DNA from: Candidatus Parcubacteria bacterium
GTDB lineage: Bacteria > Patescibacteriota > Minisyncoccia > Phycocordibacterales > Phycocordibacteraceae
DNA length: 15,500 nt
Direction: 5' to 3'
Assembly: GCA_027459545.1 (NCBI GenBank)
Contig: DAIDID010000007.1
Coordinates: 1-15,500 of the forward strand
Shown: positions 10,089-10,967 of the stretch, piece by piece
Position numbering within the stretch: the stretch's first letter is position 1
Layout of the letters: each line of letters begins with the position of its first letter
The notes under the pieces: model-generated
Databases searched by the model: none
The model's input: only the letters and a program-made list of their open reading frames with translations
Told to the model about the DNA's origin: nothing
Translations under genes and position numbers: made by a program

Positions 10089-10116
10089 AAAGAGGGCGGC
10101 CGTTTCGGCCGCCCTC
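10087..10116 (-). terminator. Intrinsic terminator of the - strand gene (possibly bidirectional)
   Basis: GAGGGCGGCCG (10092-10102), loop TTT, CGGCCGCCCTC (10106-10116): an 11-bp perfect GC-rich stem. On the - strand it is followed by TTTTTATTCTTT, giving a classic terminator 18 bp after the - strand gene's stop. On the + strand there is no T-run, so it would end lysS transcripts poorly, though the stem could protect their 3' end. Confidence 0.85.
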
Positions 10117-10134
10117 GATACAGTCGTCGTTATC

Positions 10135-10630
10135 TCAGAGATAAACCTTGATCTCGAAGTCTCCGAGCATGTCTACCATATCGCCACTTTCTATGCCTTT
10201 TAGTTTTGGGCGAGGGAAGAGGAGTGCTACATATTTGGTTAAGAAGTTTTTCTTTAAAAGCCAGAAGTTCCTCCCCACGGTACATTTCTCCCGTAGGAGG
10301 AGACCTAACAAATACGAGTTTCGAAACATTCATGAATTGCTCGGGCTTAAGTAAGCCTCGTTTTTCGATAAAGCGTATACGTTCTTCGGGGTCGTTTGGC
10401 GCAATAAGAAAAAAACGATTCTTAAAGTATATCCCGCCCTCAACAAAGGCGGTCGCTGAGTCCGCAACTTTCTCTGAAATGAATGAGCACTCGAGCTTGC
10501 ACACTGGGTACCCGAAGCTTTTCACAATATCCAGCACTTCACAGCAAAGGCGAGAATCACTGTGCGCCAGGTACTGGTGCGTGTTTAGGGTAATCACAAT
10601 TTTCCTTTCCTTGGATGTATTGAGCACCAT
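10135..10630 (-). CDS. Unrecognised protein with apparent frameshift near the 3' end
   Basis: I do not recognise this gene. Read from the ATG at 10630, one frame gives a plausible mixed alpha/beta protein up to about residue 127 (KIVITLNTH, EGGIYFKNRFFLIAPNDPEER, KLVFVRSPPTGE), then degenerates into Arg-rich text ending at 10130. The neighbouring frame gives a natural-looking acidic end (KLKGIESGDMVDMLGDFEIKVYL) to a TGA at 10135-10137. The two join at an A5 run (10247-10251 on the + strand, as T5); removing one A would fuse them into about 165 residues. A GTG at 10597, 6 bases after AAGG, is an alternative start. No signal peptide, membrane helix or metal site is seen. The strong terminator just downstream and the structured leader upstream support a real transcription unit. 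Confidence 0.6.
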
Positions 10631-10639
10631 TGCTCATAA

Positions 10640-10815
10640 AGATCAAAAGCGAGCCCCAGACTTTGGTCGGGAGCTCGCTTGAATTTTCTATCTTATTTGG
10701 TGATTGTATCAACCCAAACTGGAGAAAACTCAAGCGAACCTCCGACTGCGCTTTCGCGCAGTCGGAGTAATAATCACGAAATAAAAATCTCGAATTACTT
10801 GAGTCATTATCTTTA
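10640..10815 (-). promoter_or_regulatory. Candidate attenuator or riboswitch leader of the - strand gene
   Basis: In transcript order (right to left) the RNA can form three elements. P1 is a 12-bp stem (10767-10756 with 10751-10740) capped by GAAA. Stem A pairs CGCTTGAGTTTTCT (10736-10723) with AGAAAATTCAAGCG (10689-10676), 14 bp including one G-U. Stem B pairs AAGCGAGC (10680-10673) with GCTCGCTT (10654-10647), extended by CCC/GGG and GAC/GTC with two bulges and a CAAA loop, and is followed by a U4 run (counting the last two stem bases) and GATCTTT. A and B share 10676-10680, so they exclude each other. The A-stem G-U pair would be an A-C mismatch on the + strand, and the GNRA loop exists only on the - strand. 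No known riboswitch class or T-box motif is recognised. Confidence 0.55.
10740..10767 (-). repeat. 12-bp perfect hairpin with GAAA loop (P1 of the leader)
   Basis: CTCCGACTGCGC (10740-10751), loop TTTC, GCGCAGTCGGAG (10756-10767). Read on the - strand the loop is GAAA, a stable GNRA tetraloop. There is no T-run on either side, so it is not a terminator. It sits three bases from stem A of the leader. Confidence 0.75.
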
Positions 10816-10821
10816 GAGACT

Positions 10822-10827
10822 ATCATA
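10822..10827 (-). promoter_or_regulatory. Possible -10 box for the - strand leader
   Basis: On the - strand TATGAT (10827-10822) is a fair -10 with a weak TTAAAA (10851-10846) as -35 and an 18-base spacer. Initiation would be near 10815, giving a leader of about 185 bases before the ATG at 10630. Confidence 0.35.
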
Positions 10828-10861
10828 TAAAATTTTTAGATGCAATTTTAATAAGCAAAAC

Positions 10862-10870
10862 TGTGGATAA
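10862..10870. promoter_or_regulatory. Perfect DnaA-box match
   Basis: TGTGGATAA is the complement of TTATCCACA, the consensus high-affinity DnaA box. It lies between the divergent promoters of the - strand gene and mraZ, 27 bases before the mraZ -10. By my rough count a given 9-mer should occur about 0.1 times in this window, so chance is possible. No cluster of boxes or AT-rich unwinding region is seen, so this is not an origin. Confidence 0.4.
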
Positions 10871-10881
10871 ATAGCGCATTG

Positions 10882-10927
10882 TGGGAGATAGTGTCATATA
10901 ATTACTAAACAGTGGGATAAGGTGGGA
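10882..10927 (+). promoter_or_regulatory. MraZ operator boxes upstream of mraZ
   Basis: Two boxes in the form TGGGA-TAAGG-TGGGA (10913-10917 and 10923-10927) are 5 bases apart, exactly the spacing of the TGGGN repeats bound by E. coli MraZ. Another TGGGA (10882-10886) with a degenerate TGTCA five bases on (10892-10896) lies about three helical turns upstream. The boxes flank and follow the -10, as expected for autorepression. Confidence 0.7.
10897..10902 (+). promoter_or_regulatory. -10 box of the mraZ/dcw promoter
   Basis: TATAAT is a perfect -10 consensus, with +1 expected near 10909 and a leader of about 60 bases before the mraZ ATG. No -35 is recognisable. The MraZ boxes lie on both sides. 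A second arrangement, TTGACC at 10938-10943, lacks a good -10. Confidence 0.5.
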
Positions 10928-10967
10928 TTTTTTGAATTTGACCACTTTATATCCACTGCATACCAAA

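Follow-up and report, generated by a model that had tools for sequence, protein, structure and literature searches.

Introduction

Transcription attenuation by a translating ribosome is classically represented by the trpL, leuL, ilvL, and pheL leaders of enterobacteria, and T-box leaders (RF00230), which are of the terminator type, respond to the supply of amino acids. The element described here shares with the enterobacterial leaders a short leader open reading frame (ORF), mutually exclusive 1:2, 2:3, and 3:4 stems, and a terminator before the gene, and in its distant relatives also runs of Leu, Ile, or Phe codons ahead of cognate genes. In contrast to those leaders, its leader starts at the predicted start of the transcript and segment 2 lies inside the ORF; its own clade lacks a single-residue run and has an orphan gene as target. 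It differs from T-box leaders by the leader ORF in its 5' part, and the window gave no match to the T-box family.

Leaderless leader peptides and Leu-rich leaders are already known in Actinobacteria, as far as the excerpted texts of two reports go (PMC1262725, PMC8079986). For Streptomyces lividans, the excerpt describes leuL1/leuL2, trpL, and ilvL leader peptides that are transcribed leaderless, some with Rho-independent terminators after them and with LeuL before leuA, in all of which they resemble the elements studied here (PMC8079986). However, these leaders belong to another phylum, measure 12-29 aa with clear control residues and, within the same excerpt, have biosynthesis, tRNA-ligase, and import genes as targets, and not orphans or stand-alone domains (PMC8079986). 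The LEU element of Actinobacteria likewise has a Leu-rich leader ORF ahead of leuA, but its excerpted description invokes a pseudoknot or alternative hairpin in which the Leu codons pair with the Shine-Dalgarno (SD) box of leuA, whereas a terminator/antiterminator is found here (PMC1262725). How Patescibacteria sense host supply is a largely open question according to the excerpted text of PMC11665869, in which the string 'attenuat' is matched at zero places. The open-licence PMC literature yielded no paper joining attenuation or leader peptides with Patescibacteria or CPR (Parcubacteria gave unrelated titles), and none on stand-alone LeuA regulatory domains.

The window, i.e., the whole stretch of 15,500 nucleotides that was analyzed, represents contig C7 of a 480-kb, 71-contig assembly with a completeness of 79%, and carries lysS, an orphan gene, mraZ, rsmH, a transpeptidase gene, and a Mur ligase gene. 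Between mraZ (+ strand) and the orphan gene (- strand) lies the element that is the subject of this study.

Results

Folding of the - strand RNA from 10815 to 10630 yielded -76.8 kcal/mol (z -8.55), a stability equaled by none of 200 shuffled sequences. The + strand of the same region was also more stable than its shuffles (z -7.57; 0 of 200), and stability alone therefore offers no basis for the choice of strand. This choice was settled in favor of the - strand by comparison with relatives, on account of their promoter-like boxes, leader ORF, U-rich tail, SD-like gene start, and covariation, in line with the strand assigned by a first-pass annotation of the window.

Refolding recovered the two mutually exclusive long stems of that annotation; the bases they share exceed the claimed 10676-10680, and segment 3 (10665..10688, - strand) can pair almost entirely with either of its partners, segment 2 in the antiterminator or segment 4 in the terminator. 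Segment 1 (10756..10767, - strand) pairs with 10740-10751 in a GAAA-capped 12-bp hairpin, as annotated, which is located at 10767-10740 and is the window version of the 1:2 stem (-26.5 kcal/mol). Segment 2 (10724..10747, - strand), recognized by folding and covariation as the 5' arm of the antiterminator, forms the long proximal stem (10747-10724 with 10688-10665; duplex energy of 2:3 -34.0 kcal/mol). Segment 4 (10647..10661, - strand) is the 3' arm of the terminator (3:4, -23.2 kcal/mol), and the distal bulged stem, annotated as 14 bp followed by U4, indeed consists of 11+3 bp (10680-10667 with 10661-10647) with TTTTG directly after it on the - strand. The 1:2, 2:3, and 3:4 stems of the window are mutually exclusive. 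In a comparison of nine sequences, 2:3 (-21.4 to -34.0 kcal/mol) and 3:4 (-17.1 to -31.3 kcal/mol) folded in all nine, and a hairpin of segment 2 with sequence upstream of it was the best local fold in all nine (-8.7 to -26.5 kcal/mol), the 1:2 hairpin and the 2:3 duplex of the window being the most stable.

A simple terminator scan, which needs 5 T in 8, made no call on the 3:4 stem of the window, of which the U-run is short. No Rfam match at gathering score was obtained in the window, T-box and leu leaders included, which agrees with the annotated lack of a T-box or known aptamer signature; the terminator-only match that the annotation had named as counterevidence was likewise not seen. In E-value mode, 10600-10870 gave six sub-threshold matches, all far under the gathering scores and at chance level.

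A -35-like hexamer, TTGCAT (10840..10845, - strand), and a -10-like hexamer, TAGTCT (10817..10822, - strand), are spaced by 17 bases, and the latter is located 9 bases ahead of the leader start codon; the calls of a promoter scan of the window did not include this 10845-10817 pair. The leader ORF, absent from the first-pass annotation, comprises 25 codons and TGA (MTQVIRDFYFVIITPTARKRSRRFA; 10730..10807, - strand). It begins about where transcription is predicted to start, spans segment 1, and stops inside segment 2, over which it is off the frame used by its relatives. No single-residue or control-codon run is present in the window leader, and its target gene is an orphan. The frame change may stem from an error of assembly or be a genuine local variant in which segments 1 and 2 are still translated.

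The presumably controlled orphan gene (10130..10630, - strand) had been annotated at 10135-10630, of which the strand holds, but ATG 10630 is the less likely start. GGAAAGGAA lies immediately ahead of GTG 10597, ATG 10630 has no clear SD, and the first ~15 residues are modeled with low confidence; GTG 10597 may therefore be the true start and is the likelier of the two. A palindrome (TGAGCACCATTGCTCA, 10621-10636) lies over the upstream ATG and could be an operator or mask a start. A terminator-like hairpin past the gene (10092..10116, - strand) was called by the terminator scan. The orphan protein has one relative at 88% identity (P0002), and its profile relatives are labelled Patescibacteria group, Parcubacteria group, and Candidatus Pacebacteria bacterium, on which ground the host is taken to be Patescibacteria-like. 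It is predicted to adopt an alpha/beta domain, and structural comparison of this model gave no reliable match. On the other side of the element, GTGGGA repeats precede mraZ at 10880-10935 and are retained in same-genus relatives; these resemble MraZ-box operators.

The motif was found upstream of mraZ in several same-genus relatives, in both orientations. A covariance model from homologous loci, as proposed in the annotation, was derived from an alignment of nine loci (A1, model R1), and compensatory changes were found in both 2:3 and 3:4. In A1, 7 of 14 pairs of 3:4 and 8 of 24 pairs of 2:3 were changed on both sides, and none of 500 shuffles reached either count; in G038, a large part of segment 3 differs and segments 2 and 4 have changed along with it. 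Model R1 matched 28 of 92 same-genus genomes, leaving 64 without a match. The extended alignment (A3) holds 29 elements, 25 near mraZ and four elsewhere, with both-side changes in 15 of 24 pairs of 2:3 and 9 of 12 of 3:4. Slid controls had at most 61% and 55% of cells paired, against 87%. The observed values were reached by 26 of 500 shuffles for 2:3 pair types, 57 for 3:4 pairs changed, and 177 for 3:4 pair types, and the covariation scores by no shuffle, all with shuffles that ignore relatedness. A mutually exclusive antiterminator (2:3) and terminator (3:4) are conserved among these relatives. The mraZ gene is divergent from all 25 elements near it; 21 of them lie 175-294 bases away and the other four 833-961 bases.

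In 26 of the 29 elements, with one of two differing readings of the leader starts of G116, G128, and G043 used throughout this count, a leader ORF starts 45-68 bases ahead of segment 2, keeps to the family frame across it, and terminates beyond it; the frame across segment 2 is abandoned in the window, G113, and G019. A TANNNT hexamer lies 9-17 bases ahead of the start codon in all 29, although a second ATG in G019 suits the promoter better than the start used for this count, and TTGAC- stands upstream, at the place equivalent to the TTGCAT of the window, in 20. From this placement the transcript is predicted to begin at the leader codon. Differences are in excess at third codon positions, which hold 25 of 46 when summed over six chosen close leader pairs.

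Family I leaders (n=19, after removal of three near-duplicates and three out-of-frame leaders, and uncorrected for phylogeny) are enriched in Ile (2.3-fold), Thr (2.0-fold), Phe and Trp (1.9-fold), Gln (1.8-fold), Leu (1.7-fold), and Tyr (1.6-fold), the Trp enrichment being non-significant (p 0.065). They are strongly hydrophobic, with D and E at 2 of 336 residues, and have no common control codon. The four elements away from mraZ (G028, G040, G014, and G043), as well as G122, found later than the 29-element set, share a QNLLGLLLTT-GGG type of leader.

In most of the 29 cases, the element precedes a small gene whose start is SD-like, which supports the annotated role as a leader for the - strand orphan gene. 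A fast-evolving protein (some 108-173 aa) is encoded after 21 of the 25 family I elements. In alignment A4 (22 rows, including P0002), the rows are 10-25% identical to the window protein, with P0002 at 88%; a 19%-identity alignment and a profile match suggest, without proving it, that these rows form one protein family. Only ORFs of 66-70 aa follow the family I element in G116, G128, and G115, and in G001 it is followed by a 329-aa protein without known function and then a full LeuA. Two switch-plus-gene units in tandem, ~750 bases apart, were seen in G105 (L126 and L107). The lysS-mraZ gap of L019 (G040) holds an ORF that resembles a REP-type transposase and is flanked by CTTGGAAGTCGGACTTCCAAG-like palindromes.

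Outside the genus, searches were performed with model R2 in two overlapping genome samples. Matches were obtained in 33 of 397 genomes (21 of 179 genera) of the order and 17 of 383 genomes (13 of 293 genera) of the class, same-genus genomes included; a single type of locus had seeded the models, their E-values are rough, and stricter filters applied to searches over 40 genomes. A leader ORF was present in 34 of the 37 matched genomes outside the genus, and TTG- and TA---T boxes in 30 of these 34, a count that is biased because starts were chosen by promoter score. Single-residue runs, counted by eye against round figures for residue background and with uncorrected p values, occurred in 19 of the 34 leaders (Leu 12, Ile 3, Phe 4), leaving 15 without a clear run.

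The next gene was scanned in 29 of the 37 genomes (all except G170, G303, G298, G639, G554, G469, G217, and G080), and 11 had a family above the Pfam cut-off, with 18 without family. Eight of the 11 match the residue of the leader: LeuA after a Leu leader (G422, G063, G138, and G173), LeuA_dimer alone after a Leu leader (G331), citramalate synthase after an Ile leader (G448; TIGR00977, 541.5 bits, cut-off 450), the C-terminal part of citramalate synthase alone after an Ile leader (G139; TIGR00977 positions 349-517, 125 bits, under the whole-protein cut-off), and DAHP-synthase FXD alone after a Phe/Tyr leader (G691). The remaining three, which do not match an amino-acid leader, are HisI (G067), a HAD hydrolase (G697), and a peroxiredoxin (G590), the last of which has no leader ORF. 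Cognate control-codon runs are found in some relatives outside the genus and not in the window.

Several further observations were made in these genomes. In G814 (L157, about 1709, + strand), a second Leu-rich start (MRNIQQNLLLGLLLQLLLTEG) directly follows the first element, perhaps representing two Leu switches in succession. A T-box match at 55 bits, below the gathering score of 93, at L132:2452-2621 (+ strand) suggests that tRNA-sensing leaders may also exist in the order. Small proteins behind switches in three genera (L139, L145, and L171) share a GLNGAL motif, and a Pfam scan assigned them no family.

The stand-alone regulatory domains are those of LeuA (LeuA_dimer; L133:1107-1451, - strand), citramalate synthase (L140:1675-2247, + strand), and DAHP synthase (FXD; L175:250-510, + strand). 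An HMGL-like domain was detected in 7 of 24 genomes searched: G001, G138, G422, G173, and G063 contain a single such protein each, namely the LeuA encoded behind the switch; of the two in G448, one is encoded behind the switch, and the one in G040 lies elsewhere. No HMGL-like domain was found in G331 and G139, which carry a stand-alone domain. DAHP_synth_1 was found in none of seven genomes searched, G691 included; a control search was positive in 11 of 14 known genomes, and this model therefore misses some types. Since G331, G139, and G691 are 98, 91, and 98% complete, their genome sequences make it likely that the catalytic relative is absent from all three.

Discussion

In its general form, the window element is probably a ribosome-mediated transcription attenuator, a single idea that accounts for where the ORF lies, for the three stems, for the covariation, and for codon runs that match the gene downstream. 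In the mechanism proposed, - strand transcription would start at or beside the AUG of the short leader ORF, which, judged by promoter spacing, would be translated without a 5' leader. A ribosome reaching the leader stop would cover segment 2, upon which 3:4 would form and transcription would end; without translation, 1:2 and then 3:4 would form, and the gene would be off as well. Scarcity of charged tRNAs for the codons of segment 1 would stall the ribosome over this segment and leave segment 2 free, by which 2:3 would form, the terminator would be blocked, and the orphan gene would be read. The likeliest signal in the clade of the window is a shortage of at least one hydrophobic amino acid, with presumed stalling; the leaders of this clade have no single-residue run, are rich in Ile, Leu, Phe, Thr, and Tyr, and are almost devoid of acidic residues.

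The composition of family I leaders, with their hydrophobicity, near lack of acidic residues (2/336), and lack of a common control codon, together with the third-position changes favored in close pairs, would also suit a nascent-chain sensor. In this reading the peptide itself, a short membrane-like stretch followed by PVGVSLE-S, and not codon supply would be monitored, either in the exit tunnel or at the membrane, and would cause the ribosome to stall or be freed. This is unlikely, as segment 2 encodes the final PVGVSLE-S, which RNA pairing already explains, three elements including the window abandon that frame, and distant relatives have plain codon runs matching their genes. The frame change over segment 2 and the lack of a control-codon run, in a draft assembly (79% complete) in which an error is possible, could alternatively mean that the window leader ORF is dead and that a constitutive or weak terminator remains. 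Such decay is rather unlikely given that the 1:2 and 2:3 stems of the window are the most stable of nine, that its ORF still covers segments 1 and 2, and that the orphan protein has a conserved relative at 88% identity.

The first-pass annotation had left the choice between an attenuator and a riboswitch, of which the attenuator is sustained by compensatory changes in both exclusive helices. A metabolite riboswitch on a terminator platform would share the terminator/antiterminator plan, and the lack of an Rfam match would allow for an unknown aptamer; however, the leader ORF, which begins near the predicted transcript start, fills the region 5' of segment 2 in which an aptamer would be expected, and the 29 sequences display no conspicuous conserved unpaired core, which makes this reading very unlikely. 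Segments 2 and 3 resemble inverted copies of one motif, as a mobile inverted repeat (MITE or REP-like) inserted between promoter and gene would have, but compensatory change in both helices, the single copy in the 480-kb assembly without multiple copies found in varied contexts, and the one locus upstream of mraZ for 25 of 29 elements render this origin scarcely credible.

Starting from ribosome-mediated attenuation, a broader proposal can be put forward tentatively and with considerable doubt: a set of leaderless peptide-leader attenuators might be shared among Patescibacteria of this class and, on amino-acid shortage, activate stand-alone amino-acid-sensing domains (LeuA_dimer, the citramalate-synthase C-terminal domain, and DAHP-synthase FXD) and fast-evolving orphan proteins, and not whole pathways. 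Host-dependent cells would in this way respond to hunger with an allosteric part that has outlived its enzyme, the window gene being a genus-level branch that watches hydrophobic residues. If true, the retention of a starvation-type leader before a regulatory domain after loss of the enzyme would be surprising to specialists. The element provides a testable handle on which charged tRNA Patescibacteria watch and what they switch on.
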